Under the pieces are notes generated by a model that saw only the letters and a list, made by a program, of their open reading frames with translations, searched no databases and was not told where the DNA came from. From positions 1 through 20,292 of IMG/VR virus record IMGVR_UViG_3300049830_000134: a stretch of 20,292 nucleotides of DNA. One strand, given 5' to 3'. Shown here in pieces: positions 1,712 through 20,292 of this stretch. Position numbers and translations under genes: made by a program. The stretch is from a virus. Position 1 is the stretch's first letter, and the number at the start of each line of letters is the position of its first letter.

Positions 1712-3243
1712 AACTTCGGAAGCTTGTTCGGCGCTGGCGGCTTCGGCTCCTGAACCTCGGGACGCTCGCCCGGTCCGTCGTCCTCGCCGTCCTCGCTGTC
1801 GTCTTGTGCGTTGCCGGCTGCGAGCGCCTCGGCCTTGGCTGCCTCTGCTGCCTCGGCCTTCGCGGCTGTCTCCTCGGCGAAGTCGGCAATCGCCATAATG
1901 TCGAGTTCAAGCGGCGACGAGAACAGGTGCGTCTTCGCGTTTAGGTTATTCATCACCCAGTCAATAAGCTTCGCCTTCTCCGTCGGCGGCAGCTCAGGGG
2001 CGAGAATCGTGAAGACCGAAGTGACAGCCTCGAGCGTGACCTTTTCGGACGTCGCCTTTTCCTCGTCCGTCTCTTCGAGCAGGTTCGGCCATTCTGCATG
2101 GAACGAATTCTGCCAATCGGCGAACGCAACGTCGTATGGGACGTTGCCATACTGCTCGGGGAACTTCTCTCTGATGGCGTTAAAGAAGTCTTCGTTCCAC
2201 GCGCGGTACATCGTGCAACGGTCGAGGAAGTCGTAGATCGGGTTCAGCCAATCGCGGACGGTCATCAGGTATTGCGCGATGGCCTTTGAGTCCTCGGTGC
2301 CCTCGCCGAACCCGACTGCGAACGTGTCCTCCAGCAGAAGCTTGGCGGGCATGCCTGCACCGGCCGCCATGTCCTCGATTATGTTCTTGCGGACGGCGTT
2401 GATCGCCCCATCAACGTTCTGCAAGTTGAGCGTCTCGATGTCTTCATCTGTTGAGATCGAGATCACGTTCCCGGTCTGCGCCTCCTTGACCATCGAGCGC
2501 TTCTGACCGAGGAACCCCGACATAACGCGATCGATCGCGGACGACGGCTGGTCGATCTTCGCGATGAGCACGCCGGCCTTGAGCGCCACCATGCCGTTCG
2601 CCATCATTAGATGGATAAACTGCTTGAGGGGCACAAGAGCGCGCTGATACGCGGATCGCCCCGTATAGCCGAAGCCTGCGGACTCATAGGCGATGTAGAG
2701 GGGGTTCTCGTGTTGAATGACCACAACCCGGGTGCGATCGTATGCCTTGCCGTTGACGCGCACGCCGCTCGTCTTTTGGAAGTCGAGCGAGTTCGGATCT
2801 TGATTGAAGACAAGCGAGCCCGCGGTGTTGAGCGGGTCCCACTCGCTATAAGACATCGTCGCCTTGGACAGCTTCTTGAAGTCAAGCGGCTCGTTCGGTT
2901 CGTCGCCCTCGATTATGATGCCGATACTTGCCGGGCCGTAGATGCGCGCGAGACGTCCGACGTTCAGCAAGTGCTCGTTGCACCCATCGAGCTTCCATTG
3001 CTTCTCGAACGCTTCGATGAGATCGGTGCCGTCGCCGGCTGCACCCGGCACTGTCAGGTTGCGCGGCTTGGACGTCGCAAGGGTCAACGGCCGATCGACG
3101 ATCTTCGACCCGTGCGGGTGGTAGAGGTAGATCAGCTTGCACAACTCGTAGCCAGCAGAGTCGCCCGGGACGATGTCCTCGGCGACTAGGAGATTATTAA
3201 AAGCGTTGCCTAGCGCAATGCCCTGCTGTGTAAGTTGCGCCAC
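1708..3243 (-). CDS. Portal protein (DUF1073-like)
   Basis: 511 residues. Portal proteins form the dodecameric ring at one capsid vertex through which DNA enters and leaves. The call rests on position directly after the large terminase and on portal-like sequence: an N-terminal region with LIYLYHPHGSKIVDRPL, a middle FVSx-like core with GPASIGIIIEG, RVVVIQHENPLY and FGYTGRSAYQRALVPL, and the late helical AAGAGMPAKLLLEDTFAVGF segment typical of DUF1073-type portals. The last 60 residues are low-complexity: an Ala/Glu coiled stretch, then acidic DDSEDGEDDG and a Pro/Lys tail. The start is GTG at 3243, sharing one base with the terminase stop (TAGTG), with AAAGGA 8 bases upstream. No Acb1-type anti-CBASS domain is visible. 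Confidence 0.88.
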   Translation of the reverse strand: MAQLTQQGIALGNAFNNLLVAEDIVPGDSAGYELCKLIYLYHPHGSKIVDRPLTLATSKPRNLTVPGAAGDGTDLIEAFEKQWKLDGCNEHLLNVGRLARIYGPASIGIIIEGDEPNEPLDFKKLSKATMSYSEWDPLNTAGSLVFNQDPNSLDFQKTSGVRVNGKAYDRTRVVVIQHENPLYIAYESAGFGYTGRSAYQRALVPLKQFIHLMMANGMVALKAGVLIAKIDQPSSAIDRVMSGFLGQKRSMVKEAQTGNVISISTDEDIETLNLQNVDGAINAVRKNIIEDMAAGAGMPAKLLLEDTFAVGFGEGTEDSKAIAQYLMTVRDWLNPIYDFLDRCTMYRAWNEDFFNAIREKFPEQYGNVPYDVAFADWQNSFHAEWPNLLEETDEEKATSEKVTLEAVTSVFTILAPELPPTEKAKLIDWVMNNLNAKTHLFSSPLELDIMAIADFAEETAAKAEAAEAAKAEALAAGNAQDDSEDGEDDGPGERPEVQEPKPPAPNKLPKL

Positions 3244-4691
3244 TAGCCCGTCCTTTTGCCGTCCCCGAACGCGAGCTCCAGACCGTGGACGTAAGCATCC
3301 AAGAGATCGTCTGCGCGCTTCGCAGCATCCTTGTCACCAATGCGAAAGCCTGCTATCTGGCCGATCATATGGTTCCGATGCGTACCCTTGTATAGCGTCA
3401 CCTTGTCATACGCACAACGCAGAATCTTTGTGGTCCCCTGATAGTGGTAGGACGATACTGCAAGTGCACGTTCGTCCTTGCCGTATGTCAGCCACTGCCC
3501 GCCAATCGGGTAAACGTCCGAGCGCAGTTTGCGCGCCTGCTGCAGGAGGATCGAGCCCGACGCCTTGTCCTCGACCCATACACCGCGCACGCCCTCGCGT
3601 GCACCGAGGCGTTTGGCCATGGCTGTCAGATTCGCGAACACGCCTTCCAGCCACGGATACAGGTTCGCGCCCTCGATCTGAATGATGTCCCAGTCAACGA
3701 TATAAAGCGGCACCCCTGAGTACTTGTTCCGGGCGAAGTAAACGACGGCGGTGCCATCGTTGTTCGTGCCAGCTTTGACGGCCGAATCCACGACGGCAAA
3801 GACGGTATCGACGTGCTTCGGATCAGGCAGTGGCACGCCTTCGGGACCGAGCCATTTGTCCGTCGTGAAGAAGGCCGCGCCTGACCAATCGACGAACTCG
3901 GCTTCGTATTCCTGAGCGAAGACGAGAGGGTGCGTGCGCTCGCGCAAGGCATCGTAGAAGACTTGCACCCGCGCTTCGTGCTCGGCGTCAAGCGCAGCCT
4001 TTAGCGTCTTGTAGTCGGGATCATCCGGGAGCATCTGCGTGGGCATCGTGTGCTCAAACAGGCGCCCCGGGACGTGCGGGTTGTTCCACGTCGGTTCGTG
4101 AACTTCGATAAACCCGTGCTTGGGATCGTTGCAGATCTGCCAGAGGAAGTTCTCGGGATCGATGCCATTGGTGTTGCTCGTCACCATGCAGTCGCCGTTA
4201 AGATCGAGCAGCGTCGGCTCGATTGAACGTTCCCACACCTGGAGCATATTCGGCTTCGTAAAGCCGCCCTCGTCTATGACGACGCGCTTATACTTACGCG
4301 ATCGGCCAGCGTTCTCGTCCTCGAGCGTCCAAAAGTCGATGCGCCCGCCCGATTGCAGACGAATGACCCCGTCCGTCTTGTTCGCCCCGCCGCGCTTGAT
4401 GGTCGCAGGCTTTAGCGTCGCCTTGACCTCTTCGAAGACCTCGGACATGCGCTTGTAGTCGGGCGCGAAGATGCCACACGGGAATCCCTTGATCGCCCCA
4501 TCGCCCAGCCACACTTGGTCAAGGGCCGTCTTGCCCCACCGACGGCCGCAGCGCACGGCCTTGCGCTTGCGCGTCGCCTTCGTCGCGAAGTCTGGCGAGA
4601 TCGAGAGCTGTCGCTCGCTCGGTGCGTCGGCTTTGATTACTCGAACCTGCCCCGCGTGTAGCGTCGGCAGCTGAACCCGGATTTCCCTCAC
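3243..4691 (-). CDS. terL: Terminase large subunit (packaging ATPase/nuclease)
   Basis: 482 residues from the GTG at 4691. The terminase large subunit pumps DNA into the procapsid and cuts the concatemer. The ATPase half has Walker A CGRRWGKT at about residues 48-55 and Walker B RVVIDEGG at 136-143. The RNase H-like nuclease half has the three expected acids: Asp302 (VFAVVDS), Glu374 (VWVEDK) and Asp461/Asp462 (KRADDLLDA). The start needs a choice. A TTG at 4703 gives four more residues but AAGGA would sit directly against it. The GTG at 4691 makes a GTGA overlap with the upstream stop, like many neighbours, and AGAAGGA lies 12 bases upstream, so I prefer it. The reading frame is intact, and length and domain order are normal. 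Confidence 0.95.
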   Translation of the reverse strand: MREIRVQLPTLHAGQVRVIKADAPSERQLSISPDFATKATRKRKAVRCGRRWGKTALDQVWLGDGAIKGFPCGIFAPDYKRMSEVFEEVKATLKPATIKRGGANKTDGVIRLQSGGRIDFWTLEDENAGRSRKYKRVVIDEGGFTKPNMLQVWERSIEPTLLDLNGDCMVTSNTNGIDPENFLWQICNDPKHGFIEVHEPTWNNPHVPGRLFEHTMPTQMLPDDPDYKTLKAALDAEHEARVQVFYDALRERTHPLVFAQEYEAEFVDWSGAAFFTTDKWLGPEGVPLPDPKHVDTVFAVVDSAVKAGTNNDGTAVVYFARNKYSGVPLYIVDWDIIQIEGANLYPWLEGVFANLTAMAKRLGAREGVRGVWVEDKASGSILLQQARKLRSDVYPIGGQWLTYGKDERALAVSSYHYQGTTKILRCAYDKVTLYKGTHRNHMIGQIAGFRIGDKDAAKRADDLLDAYVHGLELAFGDGKRTG

Positions 4692-7676: not shown

Positions 7677-7940
7677 TTACCCGGCGATTGCGACCACGTC
7701 GATTGGCACGGCGCCAAGCGGCATCACCCACACCTTGGTGGCGGCTGGGAATGTCGCGTTGAACGTGCCGCCCGTGTTGACGGGCTCAATCCCATCGGCG
7801 GGATCGGTCGGTGCAGCTGCCCCAGCCGCGACCAGGAAGTTCTGTCGCGGCGTCGCTTGCAAGATCACGGCGGTGACCGTGTCTGCGACCTTCGTCCACG
7901 TGGCAACGGGGCAGCTTGTCTTTGTCGTGGTGACGGCCAT
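7677..7940 (-). CDS. 87-residue beta-rich phage protein, possibly virion-associated
   Basis: ATG 7940 has GGAG 6 bases upstream; an in-frame ATG four codons earlier lacks a good site. The sequence alternates short beta strands and turns (ATWTKVADTVTAVILQAT, FLVAAGAAAP, TFNATFPAATKVWVMPLG) and has almost no charge. This resembles small decoration or head-fibre proteins in which each monomer is a compact beta domain, but I cannot name a family. The gene stands alone, with a strong hairpin on each side (7954-7985 upstream, 7639-7668 downstream), suggesting a separately stabilised message. Confidence 0.82.
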   Translation of the reverse strand: MAVTTTKTSCPVATWTKVADTVTAVILQATPRQNFLVAAGAAAPTDPADGIEPVNTGGTFNATFPAATKVWVMPLGAVPIDVVAIAG

Positions 7941-7953
7941 GGTAATCTCCATG

Positions 7954-7985
7954 CCTGCCGCGAGATCAGGAGATCCCGCGGCAGG
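7954..7985 (-). other. Strong intergenic hairpin before the 87-residue gene
   Basis: CCTGCCGCG pairs with CGCGGCAGG (9 bp), then one mismatch, then GATC with GATC around a 4-base loop. It begins 7 bases after the stop of the 129-residue gene and ends 13 bases before the next ATG. It has no T tract. Confidence 0.55.
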
Positions 7986-7992
7986 GACTTGG

Positions 7993-8382
7993 TCAGGCGG
8001 CGGGCGGGGTGTCCGTGACGGGCACGGGATCGCCCGAGCCGAGCGGCACGGGATCAGCTGGCGCAGGGGCCGGACCATTCGCGGGTGATTGTTCGGTCGA
8101 TACGGGAATCGGATCTGCCGGATCGCTCACGGGCGGCGCGGGCGGGTTCAGGGCATCGGCGATCTTGCCAAGGCCTGCCTCGACTACGGCGATGCGCGCG
8201 TCCTCGGTCGAGACCGAGCCATCGAGCGTCGCGAGATGTGCGTCCACCGTCGCTTCGTGAGCGGCTTCGTCCGCCAGGTGCCCATCGATCGCGGTCAGAT
8301 GCTCGAGCACCGCCGGATCGGTCTTCGTCGCGCCGCTTGCAAGCGCAACGAGCGCCGCGGCAATACGGTCGAAAATGTCCAT
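7993..8382 (-). CDS. 129-residue protein with helical N-terminus and Pro-rich tail
   Basis: ATG 8382 with GGAGGA 8 bases upstream; a longer frame to 8454 has no ribosome site. Residues 1-18 form an amphipathic helix (MDIFDRIAAALVALASG). Residues 20-80 look like a coiled coil with regular Leu/Ala and many Glu/Asp (LEHLTAIDGHLADEAAHEA). The last 45 residues are Pro/Ala/Asp-rich repeats (PADPIPVS, APADPVPLG, GDPVPV). A coiled coil followed by a Pro-rich linker is common in virion fibres and scaffolding proteins. There is no recognised family. Confidence 0.8.
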   Translation of the reverse strand: MDIFDRIAAALVALASGATKTDPAVLEHLTAIDGHLADEAAHEATVDAHLATLDGSVSTEDARIAVVEAGLGKIADALNPPAPPVSDPADPIPVSTEQSPANGPAPAPADPVPLGSGDPVPVTDTPPAA

Positions 8383-8394
8383 ATCGTTTGTCCT

Positions 8395-8413
8395 CCGTCG
8401 CGAGATGCGACGG
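8395..8413 (-). promoter_or_regulatory. Hairpin abutting a ribosome binding site
   Basis: CCGTCGC and GCGACGG pair (7 bp, 5-base loop GAGAT on the plus strand). Its 3' end on the transcript contains the first G bases of the GGAGGA site of the 129-residue gene. It may modulate initiation. Confidence 0.35.
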
Positions 8414-8467
8414 GGTGCACGATACAGCGGCGCCCCGCGGAAACGCAATGGCAATAATTCGGATCAA

Positions 8468-8806
8468 TCAGTCGCCATCGTACTCGTAGAGCTTCTGTTC
8501 CCACACGCGGAGAAAAGCGTTGACGCGATCGGCGACGAATTCCTCGCCCTCTTCGATGTCCTCGCCGATCGCCTGATAGACGGACGCGACGAACGCGTCT
8601 TGATCCTTGACGTCCTTACCATCGATCGCGAACGTGGTTTCCGTGACCTCAAGCTGCTCGTAGTCGATGCCGACATCCGGCTCCGGCGGATGGAACTTGA
8701 ACGTGAAGGTTGCAGACATGACAGGCCACGCCGGCAGCTCGTCCGAAGGATCGGTCGCCGTGAACTCGTCGCCGAAGTCGTCGAACTCGAACGTTTGGGT
8801 CGGCAT
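8468..8806 (-). CDS. 112-residue acidic protein, unknown
   Basis: ATG 8806 follows GGGAG by 6 bases and lies one base after the stop of the 51-residue zinc protein. Strongly acidic throughout (FEFDDFGDEF, EDIEEGEEF). Residues 30-40 form beta strands (SATFTFKFHPPEPD) and the C-terminal half is helical (AFVASVYQAIGEDIEE, then FLRVWEQKLYEYDGD). Acidic proteins of this sort are frequent among phage early proteins and can act as DNA mimics or host-protein binders, but nothing specific supports that here. Confidence 0.85.
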   Translation of the reverse strand: MPTQTFEFDDFGDEFTATDPSDELPAWPVMSATFTFKFHPPEPDVGIDYEQLEVTETTFAIDGKDVKDQDAFVASVYQAIGEDIEEGEEFVADRVNAFLRVWEQKLYEYDGD

Positions 8807-14361: not shown

Positions 14362-15066
14362 TCACCGCCCCCCGATCTGGAGGGCGGCGGTGTGACCAGC
14401 CTGTCGGTGCAGGCCGATGGTGTCGGCGAGCTCGCGGGCCGATGCGGTCGACTTCGTCTTCGTGCCCTTGAGCAGCGTAACGTCTGGGTACAGCTCCTTG
14501 TAGAGGGCGACGACCTGGTCAAGGACGAGCAGCGAGTTCTTTGCAGCCGCGGTCGATGGGTTCGCCTCGTCCCGGGCTTCGCGTTCGCGGATCAGGGTGA
14601 AGACGCGAGTTGCGAGGACATTGCCCACAAGGCGCGCGCCGTTTGCGTCGGTGGGGGCGCCGCCGTTCGCCTTGAGTTCGCGACCGAGGCGATTGCACTC
14701 GCCCTTGATGAAGACGAACATGAGATCCGTGGTCACGATTGCGGATTCGCGGCCGACGACTTCCTGACGATAACCCTTGTTCGTTGCGACCTTGATCGAC
14801 TTGCAGCCATAGTACCGCGCGAGTGCGCGGTAAACCTGGCGGTGCCAGGATGCGACCCATTTGCCGTCCGCGTCGATCCCGACGTGCTGCTTGACCTTGT
14901 CGGACGCGTCGCCCAGCTCGGACAGGTCGATCTGATAGAGCTCAAGGAGCTCCTCGGCCTTCGCGATGAACGCGGCCGCTTCGTGCTCGTTGTCGGTGCC
15001 CTTGGCCTTCGCGAGAAGGGCCGAGATGCGGGTCTTGATCTTGTCGAAGTTGGTTTCGTTGGTCAT
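14362..15066 (-). CDS. DUF2786-family protein
   Basis: 234 residues from ATG 15066 (GGAGG 5 bases upstream); the frame to 15141 has no ribosome site. Residues 7-47 are the DUF2786 segment (KIKTRISALLAKAKGTDNEH, then EAAAFIAKAEELLELYQID). Residues 70-95 (WVASWHRQVYRALARYYGC) and a following AIVTTDLMFVFIKGECNRLG belong to the region usually adjacent to it. The C-terminal third is helical and basic. DUF2786 proteins occur in phages and bacteria and have no established activity; the domain order here is normal. Confidence 0.88.
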   Translation of the reverse strand: MTNETNFDKIKTRISALLAKAKGTDNEHEAAAFIAKAEELLELYQIDLSELGDASDKVKQHVGIDADGKWVASWHRQVYRALARYYGCKSIKVATNKGYRQEVVGRESAIVTTDLMFVFIKGECNRLGRELKANGGAPTDANGARLVGNVLATRVFTLIREREARDEANPSTAAAKNSLLVLDQVVALYKELYPDVTLLKGTKTKSTASARELADTIGLHRQAGHTAALQIGGR

Positions 15067-15103
15067 GGGTGCCTCCAGGCATGCGTTGTTGGTGCTCGAT
15101 GTA

Positions 15104-15127
15104 TGCCCCCGCCAGAAGGCGGAGGCA
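15104..15127 (-). other. Stable intergenic hairpin with UUCU loop
   Basis: TGCCCCCGCC and GGCGGAGGCA pair (10 bp, one wobble) around a 4-base loop, in the 71-base gap between the 85-residue and DUF2786 genes. No T tract follows on the minus strand, so it is more likely an mRNA stability or attenuation element than an intrinsic terminator. Confidence 0.5.
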
Positions 15128-15137
15128 AGCATTATTT

Positions 15138-15395
15138 TCAACCGCAGATCATAATAAGGACGAAGCGCAGCGCATCGTCGCGACGGTCACGCAGATACTG
15201 CGTGGTGGCGATGGTCATGCCATCGCTGTTGTCGGCGGCCCAGAACAGGGTCTTCGCGGCGTCAATGACCCGCTTGCAATCGGCGCCGCAGATGGAGTCG
15301 AGCGGGATCGATGCGAGGTCGTTGGCTTCGTCGCCCAGCGGGAGCTTGAGGCCGGGGAACGCTTCGTTGAAGTGGTGCAGAACAGTCGTTGTCAT
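15138..15395 (-). CDS. 85-residue protein, unknown
   Basis: ATG 15395 follows GGAG by 8 bases. N-terminus TTTVLHHFNEAFPGLKLPLG, then DLASIPLDSICGADCKRVID, then a helix (AAKTLFWAADNSDGMT), then ATTQYLRDRRDDALRFVL. Two Cys in CGADC form no zinc pair. No family is recognised. Its start lies 47 bases after the first copy of the 18-bp repeat. Confidence 0.8.
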   Translation of the reverse strand: MTTTVLHHFNEAFPGLKLPLGDEANDLASIPLDSICGADCKRVIDAAKTLFWAADNSDGMTIATTQYLRDRRDDALRFVLIMICG

Positions 15396-15981: not shown

Positions 15982-16067
15982 GCCCTCCCGCAGCGCGGGC
16001 ACTTGGGCCCGACGAAAGTCGGCCACTTGTAGCCGCACCAGTGACAGACGCGCTGGAACATGCTCAT
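15978..16067 (-). CDS. 29-residue zinc-ribbon micro-protein
   Basis: ATG 16067 overlaps the preceding stop (ATGA) with GGAGGACAGGG upstream; its TGA overlaps the next ATG. Within 29 residues it has CHWC and CPRC separated by 11 residues (GYKWPTFVGPK), a complete four-Cys zinc ribbon and almost nothing else. The clean pattern and coupling on both sides argue strongly for a real gene despite its size. Confidence 0.78.
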   Translation of the reverse strand: MSMFQRVCHWCGYKWPTFVGPKCPRCGRA

Positions 16068-16468
16068 CCCTGTCCTCCCCAGCCGTAGATGGCTTGATAG
16101 TCGTCCGCGTCGAGATCCGGCTCGGACGGTGGATTGAGACGCGCGGCCATATCGCGAAGGATCGCCGCGAGGAGCTCACGATCGCCATTGACCTGGAAAA
16201 GGTCAATCATGGCAATAAGACGTGAGTGCTCGTTCTGCGCCTCGCGTAGCGCCGCTGTGCGCTGCGCGAAGACAATCATCCGGTCTCGGTTGTAGCGTTC
16301 TGTCTCAGCCTCATCCCAGCCGCGTTCCCAGTGCATGCCGTTGCACGACAGGCGCGGGTTGTGCGGACACGTCGTCCGCGCCTTGCCTTCGGCATGGGCT
16401 TGACGCCCAGCCAAGCGCAGCTCCTCGATCTCAGTGCGGCGTTGCCGCTTGCGTGCGGGATTGCTCAT
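16064..16468 (-). CDS. Rmf-like domain protein
   Basis: 134 residues, ATG 16468 in an ATGA overlap with AAGGGA 7 bases upstream. The N-terminus is very basic (SNPARKRQRRTEIEEL). Residues 16-55 have AGRQAHAEGKARTTCP, HNPRLS and HWERGWDEAE. E. coli Rmf has the same run (a helix with GxxAG, then CPY, then R, WL, GGW and REA). Rmf dimerises ribosomes in stationary phase. A long helix follows (RMIVFAQRTAALREAQNEH), then an acidic tail. A phage Rmf-like protein could target ribosomes or be an unrelated use of the fold; the sequence does not decide. It is coupled to the polymerase fragment upstream. Confidence 0.78.
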   Translation of the reverse strand: MSNPARKRQRRTEIEELRLAGRQAHAEGKARTTCPHNPRLSCNGMHWERGWDEAETERYNRDRMIVFAQRTAALREAQNEHSRLIAMIDLFQVNGDRELLAAILRDMAARLNPPSEPDLDADDYQAIYGWGGQG

Positions 16469-16713
16469 GGTTTGTCCCTTCTGTGCCCGTAGAGCGCGCG
16501 GAAGTTGATGATCTTCGCGCGGTCTCGCGTGTCCTCGGTCACGTCGCCGAACAACTCGCTGGCCGTGTCTGCGTGGATGTCACCAGGCGCAAGAGCTTGT
16601 GCCAGCAGGCTCAGCTCTATCGCGGCGTAGTCGATGACCGCGGGCTCCTCGGGCAGGGGCCGAAGCCCTCGTCCTTGGCGCTGGGTGTCATCGCGGAACG
16701 TGCGTCGGGTCAT
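16465..16713 (-). CDS. 82-residue DNA polymerase I palm/fingers fragment
   Basis: A small standalone protein that matches the polymerase core of family A enzymes. VIDYAAIELSLLAQAL is motif A (Asp28 at the catalytic Asp705 position of E. coli Pol I, Glu33 at Glu710). DIHADTASELFG is the next conserved segment, with about 12 residues missing between. TEDTRDRAKIINFRALYG is the O-helix, keeping Arg63, Lys67, Phe71 and Tyr75 (754, 758, 762, 766). No motif C (HDE), thumb or exonuclease is present, so polymerase activity is not expected. The ATG at 16713 overlaps the upstream stop (ATGA). The frame is intact, with no decay. It could be a domesticated remnant or a binding module. Confidence 0.82.
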   Translation of the reverse strand: MTRRTFRDDTQRQGRGLRPLPEEPAVIDYAAIELSLLAQALAPGDIHADTASELFGDVTEDTRDRAKIINFRALYGHRRDKP

Positions 16714-16895
16714 GGCAGGTCGTTCTCGAACCGATTGCCATCGGCATCGAACAGATCGTCTTCGTTGACCGTAAACATGATGTCCCCCGCCTCGTTGCGG
16801 AAGACGAGGTAGTTGCCCGTGGGCATGACGGACAGGTTTAGATCGTTCAGATCCGACAGATTGGCCTTGAGCTGGCTAAGCTTTGCACGTGTCAT
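16710..16895 (-). CDS. 61-residue protein, unknown; opens a coupled gene block
   Basis: ATG 16895 with CTGGAGGA about 8 bases upstream. N-terminus helical and polar (AKLSQLKANLSDLNDLNLS), then beta (GNYLVFRNEAGDIMFTV) and an acidic end (NEDDLFDADGNRFEND). It is the first gene of a run of seven very short, mostly overlapping genes (16895-15454). The acidic C-terminus carries DADGNxFE, superficially like a calcium-binding loop but without a second hand. Confidence 0.82.
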   Translation of the reverse strand: MTRAKLSQLKANLSDLNDLNLSVMPTGNYLVFRNEAGDIMFTVNEDDLFDADGNRFENDLP

Positions 16896-17742: not shown

Positions 17743-18228
17743 TCATTCGGGGTCCCCTTGTGACGCCTCGAGCGCTCTCGCCCTTGCATCGTCGGCATGG
17801 GCGCCCGTGTCATCGATTGTCTCGATTGTCAGCCAGAGCCCTGTCACCTCGCCATATTGCTTGCGCGCCTCGATCCAGCAGACTTGGCTGTCGTCCTTCC
17901 AGATTATCTCGTTGAGACCATCGCAGGCGATCTTTATCACGTTGTCGAGATCAGGCTTGCCCACGTGCCAGAGTTTGCCGATAGCCGCGAGGACGCGCCG
18001 CCATTTGGGCCATGACTTCGCGATAGGGAACACGGCAACGAGAGTCAGCTTGATCGGGCACTCCAGAGGCGCGAAGCTCCACACGTCTCGTCCGACGGCT
18101 TTGAGGCGAGCCTCATACAGAACTGTCTTGGCACGACTGAACGTTCGCACCCCGCCCGAAGTGCGGGCGAACTGAGGGCGTCCCTTCTGCCCGGGAACAC
18201 CGTCTAGGTACAGCTTGATCTCGCTCAT
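17743..18228 (-). CDS. rusA: RusA-family Holliday junction resolvase
   Basis: 161 residues. RusA dimers cut four-way junctions symmetrically and help recombination and concatemer clean-up in phages. The signature KPDLDNVIK has Asp93, Asp95 and Lys99, followed by DGLNEIIWKDDSQV with Asp112/Asp113, matching the catalytic Asp70, Asp72, Lys76 and Asp91 set of E. coli RusA. The N-terminus has KLYLDGVPGQKGRPQFAR, the usual strand and loop. ATG 18228 with TGGAG 5 bases upstream. The first gene after the AT-rich region, in line with a replication and recombination block. The ending is acidic and a little longer than typical (usual 120-140). Confidence 0.93.
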   Translation of the reverse strand: MSEIKLYLDGVPGQKGRPQFARTSGGVRTFSRAKTVLYEARLKAVGRDVWSFAPLECPIKLTLVAVFPIAKSWPKWRRVLAAIGKLWHVGKPDLDNVIKIACDGLNEIIWKDDSQVCWIEARKQYGEVTGLWLTIETIDDTGAHADDARARALEASQGDPE

Positions 18229-18497: not shown

Positions 18498-20292
18498 CTA
18501 GCCGCCCCATTGATCTCCTAGAGCGAATACTGCTGCCGTCGTGTTGAACCATGACTTCGCCGTCTTCGGATCAAGCTGAATGAGAATCCCAGATGCCACA
18601 AGGGACGCGAGAGTCTCCTTGAGCGCAGCCGATGCCCCGTTACGATGTTTCCGGAACGCTGCGCGTGCGGCTGTCCTCTGCATTAGCTCGCGCATCGGAA
18701 TGCACCCCTTGGCCTGATACGAGATTGCCGTCTTGATCTTCGACGCCATGAAGCTGGTTATGACCTTATGCAGATCAGCTTGGAGCTTTGCGTCTCCCTC
18801 GCCCACGTCGCCCTCCTTGAAGCGAGTAAGCAATACAGCCACGTCCTTCTCGACCATATCGATGGCCCACTTGGCAACGTCGTGGGTAACAAGGGGCTGG
18901 CCGTAGTTGACGCCAACGGCGACAAGGGCCGCGAGCCGCAGAGCCTTAATGTGAGCCCGATTCCACATCTGCTGCGTGACTTCGTCTTTCACGCGCATTT
19001 CCCTGTCTGCTCGTTTATCAAAGTTATCTAATAACTCCAGCCCCGCGGCATCGCAGTTCACAACGAAGACTTGTCTGTTTTGTTGCATTTGGAGACAAGC
19101 TGCAGTCAGGTCCGCAACGCTCTGCACTAGGTCCGCGGGCGGGATGGCGTGCGGATTGACGTTGCGCGGCGGCCGCTCGCCTTTGTACTCGATAATCATA
19201 AACCGAGGCAGGAAGCCGGAATCAACCAAGGATTCGTCTAGGCTCGCGAAGAAGGGCTCCGGAGCTGTCTCGCCAAGAATCGTCAATGTCGGGCTCTGCA
19301 CGTTCGCAGTATTCTTCTCAGCATCTGAGTGCACCGTCGCGCGCAGCATCTGATTGGCGCCTGACTTGTGGTACATATCTTTGAGCTCTTGCAGCAGGGA
19401 CAGATCCGCCCCGTTCGCTCGAGGTGAGGACAACCGCTTCATCGTGTCCCCGAACTCGCCAAGAATGCTGACGAAGCACGGTTGTTTCTGAAACCGCTTG
19501 TTAAGTGCTTGTCCCGATGCGAAGCGCGATGGGCCTAGGAAGGTGTCAGCCGCAGGAACTGTCTTCGTCACCTCGGCAAACAATCTGTCTATTGCAGACG
19601 CAATCGATTCTTTCCCCGTCCCCGTGCGCGCGAGCAACAGAATGTAAAGGTTCAGGCCCGTGGAGCTGATATTGTATTGCCTGCCCACGATGCCGGCCAC
19701 CGTCGCAATCGCACCTGCAAGCGCGATCTCGGGCACGGGCCTGATAGCCGCGCCATACGCGTACCGGGCAATCTCACCGATAAGCCCGGGCGGATACGAG
19801 AACGGCTCGCGCTCGGGTTCGATGAACGGGTTAACGTCCACGGGCGAGGTTGGCGCATACAAGGGCCTAGCCATCTCATGCTCGATCAAGGCTTGATCTG
19901 CGGCCTTGTTCTCGTGTTGCCTCGCCTCCTCGACCTCGCGAGCGGCTTGACTAACGGCTGCCGCGCGTGCGGCGATGGCCGTATGATCGAGCGGGGGCGG
20001 CTTGTCCTTTTCGAGCCGTGCGCGTGCGTATGCGAGGGTTCTCGGAACATAATCCGGTCGATCCGTCGCCTTGTCCCGTTCGGCCAACTTCGAGCGCATG
20101 AATAGCCGAATGACCTGCGCATTGTCGGGCGTGTAGAAGGCGAAGAACTGCAATAGGGAACAATCCGCCTCCGAATGATTCCCGCCGTGGTACGTGTCGA
20201 TATCCCCGCGGCACAATGCCAGGAACTTCTCGCTGTTCGCGGCGTTCATGGCCCTGTCAACGATCTCGAGATCCGACAGCATGGATTCGTCC
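18498..20292 (-). CDS. Phage primase/helicase-type replication protein (5' end outside window)
   Basis: At least 597 codons, open to the right edge; the ATG at 20282 is internal. The first 95 residues (LSDLEIVDRAMNAANSEKF, then LALCRGD, HSEADCSLLQFFAFYT, RLFMRSKLAERDK) match the end of the NrS-1-like primase-polymerase region. A coiled linker follows. From residue 164 of this part there is a DUF3987-like ATPase: Walker A LLLARTGTGKES (about 215-226), a Walker B-like FVSILGEFGDT, then PTLTILGETAPEPFF and SGFLPRFMI with a candidate arginine finger. The likely job is priming and unwinding at the origin. The AT-rich repeats lie directly after its stop. Family names are by motif. Confidence 0.85.
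   Translation of the reverse strand, partial: DESMLSDLEIVDRAMNAANSEKFLALCRGDIDTYHGGNHSEADCSLLQFFAFYTPDNAQVIRLFMRSKLAERDKATDRPDYVPRTLAYARARLEKDKPPPLDHTAIAARAAAVSQAAREVEEARQHENKAADQALIEHEMARPLYAPTSPVDVNPFIEPEREPFSYPPGLIGEIARYAYGAAIRPVPEIALAGAIATVAGIVGRQYNISSTGLNLYILLLARTGTGKESIASAIDRLFAEVTKTVPAADTFLGPSRFASGQALNKRFQKQPCFVSILGEFGDTMKRLSSPRANGADLSLLQELKDMYHKSGANQMLRATVHSDAEKNTANVQSPTLTILGETAPEPFFASLDESLVDSGFLPRFMIIEYKGERPPRNVNPHAIPPADLVQSVADLTAACLQMQQNRQVFVVNCDAAGLELLDNFDKRADREMRVKDEVTQQMWNRAHIKALRLAALVAVGVNYGQPLVTHDVAKWAIDMVEKDVAVLLTRFKEGDVGEGDAKLQADLHKVITSFMASKIKTAISYQAKGCIPMRELMQRTAARAAFRKHRNGASAALKETLASLVASGILIQLDPKTAKSWFNTTAAVFALGDQWGG

Follow-up and report, generated by a model that had tools for sequence, protein, structure and literature searches.

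A protein of 82 residues, encoded by a 20,292-base viral DNA record (hereafter the window, meaning the whole stretch analysed), is probably a small, non-catalytic accessory phage protein that arose from the fingers of a DNA polymerase I of bacterial type and likely serves as a binding module. We give this reading a probability of about 60%. The protein is a new, divergent representative of a scattered and poorly recognised sort of phage protein.

The mini-fingers gene and its surroundings

The gene is an open reading frame of 82 codons, from ATG to TGA, on the minus strand (16713..16465). A preliminary description of this DNA had reported the reading frame at 16465-16713 without naming a strand, and had considered it intact, coupled to its neighbours on both sides and not in decay. 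Our results agree with this on each point. The start overlaps the stop of a 61-residue gene (CATGAC) and the stop overlaps the start of a 134-residue gene (CATGAG), both in the manner of ATGA coupling. The codon-position GC of the gene (0.69/0.48/0.77) agrees with that of the neighbouring minus-strand genes. The plus strand of the same interval does not encode the protein, and its overlapping reading frame has a different codon-position GC (0.65/0.62/0.64). Hence, the reading frame, the polymerase profile match described below, the double overlap and the neighbour-like codon usage identify a real, intact gene for a coupled polymerase A fragment. The features discussed here are as follows.

16465..16713, minus strand: mini-fingers gene, 82 aa, with motif A at residues 27-38, DIH/helix M at 45-55 and O-helix at 60-76, and without helix L, motif C, thumb and exonuclease
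16486..16581, minus strand: M/O-helix module, codons 45-76, DIHADTASELFGDVTEDTRDRAKIINFRALYG, common to PPWS2, CX5, phiKMV gp12, Aci05 gp036 and PMBT3
16600..16635, minus strand: motif A-like segment, codons 27-38, IDYAAIELSLLA, with D28 = E. coli D705 and E33 = E710
16710..16895, minus strand: upstream coupled gene, 61 aa, without a confident family match, its stop overlapping the mini-fingers start (ATGA)
16064..16468, minus strand: coupled gene on the downstream side, 134 aa, whose N-terminus carries a ribosome modulation factor (Rmf/CrpP-fold) domain and whose ATG overlaps the mini-fingers stop
17743..18228, minus strand: RusA-like resolvase, by profile matches
18498..20282, minus strand: DUF3987 primase-helicase, probably truncated where the record stops

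The N-terminus of the 134-residue protein matches PF04957 (E = 8.5e-7), with a weak match to the NCBIfam Rmf/CrpP-fold phage family. Its C-terminal part has no match, and tblastn against the phage collection gave no homologue of the protein. A 259-residue protein elsewhere in the window (14362-15141, minus strand) contains DUF2786 and DUF7168 domains.

Homology to family A polymerases

The preliminary description had recognised family A polymerase sequence across motif A, the DIH segment and the O-helix. This is borne out by three profile collections. Residues 27-78 match Pfam DNA_pol_A (PF00476; E = 2.3e-7), with 30.6 bits against a gathering cutoff of 34.3 and thus below it, and further matches were obtained to PHROG 17 DNA polymerase (E = 6.4e-6) and NCBIfam DNA polymerase I (E = 1.2e-6). 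Unlike the window protein, gp05 of Pectobacterium phage PPWS2 clears the Pfam cutoff with 47.5 bits. The agreement of the window protein with the DNA polymerase profiles is not due to chance.

Alignment to E. coli Pol I equates D28 with D705, E33 with E710, H47 with H734, R63 with R754, K67 with K758, F71 with F762 and Y75 with Y766. Hence, motif A with its metal-binding Asp (D28) and the RxxxKxxxFxxxY pattern of the O-helix (R63, K67, F71, Y75) are present, as the preliminary description had claimed. The protein retains D705, Y706, I709, E710, L711 and A715 of Pol I before a deletion and D732, H734, T737, A738, R754, A757, K758, N761, F762, Y766 and G767 after it, while S707, Q708, R712, H716, R755 and G763 are lost. 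Homology ends at G767. The 27 N-terminal residues, with GRGLR, were considered as a further polymerase relic and rejected (shuffle P about 0.36).

Between motif A and DIH, the deletion that had been put at about a dozen residues measures exactly 10: the IEL..DIH span is 16 in the window protein, against 26 in all 31 full-length polymerases from Pseudomonadota genomes that formed our comparison set. It removes helix L, and thereby joins motif A (helix K) to helix M and the O-helix. A second gap of 4 residues lies ahead of the O-helix. In addition, the Gly that follows NF in 31/31 full-length polymerases is replaced by Arg (NFR).

Motif C, thumb and exonuclease are absent, as reported, and a DNA_pol_A search of the whole 20.3-kb record returned only this piece (profile columns 158-221 of 381). 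Polymerase activity would not be expected of a protein without motif C.

Structure models gave a divided result. The AF2 model of the window protein has a mean pLDDT of 64.6, with helices at 29-38, 47-55 and 60-75 predicted at low confidence, and Foldseek returned nothing significant for it (E about 3). The model of PPWS2 gp05 has a mean pLDDT of 80.7, with values of about 91-95 across residues 21-50. Its best PDB matches, at Foldseek E-values of 0.015 or worse, are the Pol I fingers, with deviations of 0.6-1.7 A across 34-40 residues.

The same short form in Pectobacterium phages

A search of phages for the same short form, as the preliminary description had suggested, was successful: tblastn recovered a 60-residue reading frame in Pectobacterium phages PPWS2 and CX5/CX5-1. 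In a tree of 48 columns, a clade of short forms was neither supported nor rejected (p-AU 0.49). Common descent is suggested by two shared states, the IEL..DIH span of 16 and NFR.

In the collections searched, the short form was not found elsewhere. Queries across the deletion yielded no further phage record with the short spacing. A DNA pattern, verified on the window and PPWS2 before scanning, matched PPWS2 and one chance sequence in the IMG/VR viral contigs, and had zero matches in 143 genomes; neither scan turned up a complete polymerase with the shortened span. Single-protein and A1-profile searches of the IMG/VR viral contigs returned PPWS2 and nothing further, and the A1 and M/O profiles detected no short form in 80 primase-related contigs. 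E. coli genomes gave no DNA match, and plasmids had full-length polA spacing only, among the matches listed. Matches in Vibrio phage 15E36.1 and Acinetobacter A31Y were dismissed as chance, being on the wrong strand or too short. Of the window form, a single copy is known.

The PPWS2 and CX5 genes occupy a site (GTGTCTAATGGGATACGC) that is empty in the related phages CB5, Koot and Khlen, where the uninterrupted sequence reads ...GATAATCGGGTGTCTAATGGGATACGCTAAGAAGC. We infer that the change at this site was an insertion, not a loss. CX5 has lost most of the upstream gene and retained the mini-gene, which is 95% identical in DNA to that of PPWS2; directly 3' of it, the two phages are clearly more divergent. 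The PPWS2-CX5 dN/dS of about 0.4 to 0.6 is based on 9 changes and is not proof of purifying selection.

The M/O module in other phages

Looser kin were found by Foldseek with the PPWS2 model, BFVD entries and the tblastn list; the BFVD search pointed to several short uncharacterised phage proteins. DNA_pol_A matches confined to DIH and the O-helix (E = 4.5e-6 to 1.6e-4) were obtained for phiKMV/LUZ19 gp12, gp036 of Acinetobacter phage Aci05 and a 120-residue protein of Pseudomonas phage PMBT3. Together with the window and PPWS2/CX5 these make five lineages. R754, K758 and Y766 are kept in all five, H734 and F762 each in four of the five, and G763 is replaced in all five. The window protein fits this pattern of a stand-alone M/O module, as a small non-polymerase reading frame that keeps R754, K758 and Y766 and has lost G763.

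Gp12, at 1443-2252 in LUZ19 and at 2004-2813 in phiKMV, is annotated as DNA polymerase, a name it should not carry; it has a Pol I fingers module after which, in a possibly permuted order, comes a stretch resembling motif A. AUM59662.1 of PMBT3, at 7887-8690 on the minus strand and annotated as DNA polymerase A, adjoins the gene of the 120-residue protein and has a weak match to Nmad5 as its sole Pfam match. A deletion of gp6-gp12 has been described in phage PE3 (PMC7835345); judging by its size, it probably does not concern phiKMV gp12. Within the collection of papers that was searched, none dealt with these small fingers proteins.

An alternative explanation might be that these genes are functionless exon debris that has survived by chance, the fragments having been spread by homing endonucleases or group I introns with a preference for the active-site region of polA. 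The recurrence of the same segment across several phage groups would be consistent with this, as would the imperfect TCTAATGG/TATAATGG copies that flank the PPWS2/CX5 insert at the start codon of the next gene, and the HNH gene that PPWS2 has some 0.9 kb upstream. Likewise, Aci05 gp036 lies 26 bases from a gene annotated as HNH endonuclease, but that gene has no Pfam match. Debris is also difficult to reconcile with open frames and coupled starts that persist at 45-55% identity, with an identical 10-residue deletion in two unrelated phages, and with O-helix residues retained in five lineages. Moreover, the module is fused into the 269-residue phiKMV gp12 family, which is conserved across phikmvviruses. 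We therefore consider this explanation improbable. The position of the HNH-annotated gene, directly 3' of Aci05 gp036 (the region 2492-3252 in Aci05), may hint at the way in which such fragments spread.

Relation to complete polymerases

The preliminary description had also offered the gene as a fragment of a phage polymerase that was replaced by the primase-polymerase. The window indeed contains no other polymerase piece. However, the record ends about 10 bases past the start of the primase reading frame, and the primase of its relatives has about 170 more N-terminal residues, which indicates that the window covers part of a phage genome only. The nearest relatives, as judged by the primase, hold PolA or another polymerase beyond the primase, i.e. 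off the record end, together with a clamp or helicase. Furthermore, PPWS2 (gp27) and PMBT3 carry a complete polymerase alongside the fragment, and an 807-residue polymerase is reported for the phiKMV-like phage PAXYB1 (PMC5638911). Finally, the fragment is of the bacterial Pol I type (DIH..TASE.F), whereas the polymerases of the relatives read DYHEMA and PPWS2's own enzyme also differs. Because of the co-occurring full polymerases, the truncation at the primase and the bacterial type of the mini-gene, a replaced polymerase is a most improbable origin.

A binding role for the fingers

We propose that the fingers of a bacterial-type Pol I were stripped out, as motif A, helix M and O-helix without palm motif C, thumb and nucleases, and that selection would retain the resulting mini-protein as a binding module, with the gene behaving as a small coupled accessory cassette. 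Most likely, it would bind a nucleoside triphosphate, pyrophosphate or a polymerase substrate weakly, since the face of the O-helix that meets the dNTP phosphates is kept (R754, K758 and Y766, and mostly H734 and F762). H734, R754, K758, F762 and Y766 form the dNTP site of the Klenow fragment. The Arg and Lys of the O-helix form salt bridges with the triphosphate (PMC4256020). This pattern would point to selection on the triphosphate-binding face. R754, K758 and Y766 belong to the best conserved positions of Pol I enzymes at large, which tempers their retention as evidence, and retention of five out of five residues between two close lineages has a P of only about 0.09.

Polymerisation is unlikely to be the job, because the motif A Asp varies from one short form to another: it is Glu in PPWS2 and CX5, and in CX5 IEL reads IGL, so that E710 is lost as well (G at 710). 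A job other than copying is also suggested by the unrelated phages that hold such pieces despite a complete polymerase of their own. Nucleotide buffering, DNA binding, a decoy role or modulation of a polymerase could be such uses. The preliminary description had proposed binding of dNTP, DNA or a polymerase partner, with interference with host Pol I; these ideas may hold, the O-helix face being retained while the motif A Asp is not. Possibly, unrelated phages have repeatedly turned Pol I fingers into free-standing binders of nucleotides or substrates (regulator, sponge or decoy), including the permuted phiKMV gp12 and the miniaturised window and PPWS2 forms; we put this broader scenario forward tentatively, as less likely than not.

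A rival explanation is that the protein is a polymerase mimic or decoy, early or accessory, which in host takeover or counter-defence would contend for a partner or substrate with host Pol I or with a defence protein that contains a polymerase. The PPWS2 and phiKMV-type versions lie within early or pre-replication blocks of small hypothetical genes, and the fragment resembles bacterial Pol I, unlike the phages' own polymerases. There is a weak PADLOC match to a DRT-associated PolA model (E = 0.017), as expected of any Pol A homologue. In contrast, the window copy sits between RusA and the structural genes, and a defence link was looked for and none was found. We know of no partner that recognises isolated Pol I fingers. 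A mimic or decoy thus seems rather unlikely.

If the proposed non-catalytic binding module is real, it would represent a catalytic domain exapted as a binding protein, with a minimal piece of the best-studied polymerase active site living apart from its enzyme in several phage groups. It would also offer a testable starting point for many small hypothetical phage proteins currently annotated plainly as DNA polymerase. By the tests applied here, phiKMV gp12, PPWS2 gp05 and similar proteins are not polymerases, and annotations should be read with this in mind.

Comparison with known systems

Bacterial DNA polymerase I, as in E. coli Pol I and Taq, is the source from which the window protein has the sequences of its motif A, helix M and O-helix. 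It differs by its exonucleases, thumb, motif C and helix L, which the window protein lacks.

The closest counterparts are PPWS2 gp05 (YP_009816166.1, annotated as DNA polymerase) and CX5 QFP93595.1. Like the window protein, they are stand-alone short reading frames with motif A, DIH/M and O-helix that stop directly past the O-helix, and they have the 10-residue deletion and NFR in common with it. The start of PPWS2 gp05 overlaps the upstream stop, as in the window gene. However, this version is only 60 residues long, lacks the N-terminal extension and is 46% identical to the window protein. It also has an NVPY loop that the window protein lacks, and Glu in place of D28.

The phiKMV/LUZ19 gp12 protein (phrog_6982, 269 aa) opens with the M/O-helix module and keeps R754, K758, F762 and Y766, as in the window. 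Unlike the window protein, it has Tyr at H734 and about 200 further residues. Its motif A-like segment DYAELETRVAASL comes after the module and not before it (PSSM, 7/5000 shuffles); for the phiKMV segment DYADLEARVAASL, 10/5000 shuffles score as high, against 7/5000 for LUZ19. This is no more than suggestive of a permuted arrangement of motif A and module.

Aci05 gp036 (55 aa) and the 120-residue PMBT3 protein resemble the window protein in their small size, M/O module, retention of R754, K758 and Y766 and loss of G763. Aci05 gp036 lacks motif A, none was found in the PMBT3 protein, and in both the flanking sequence differs from that of the window.
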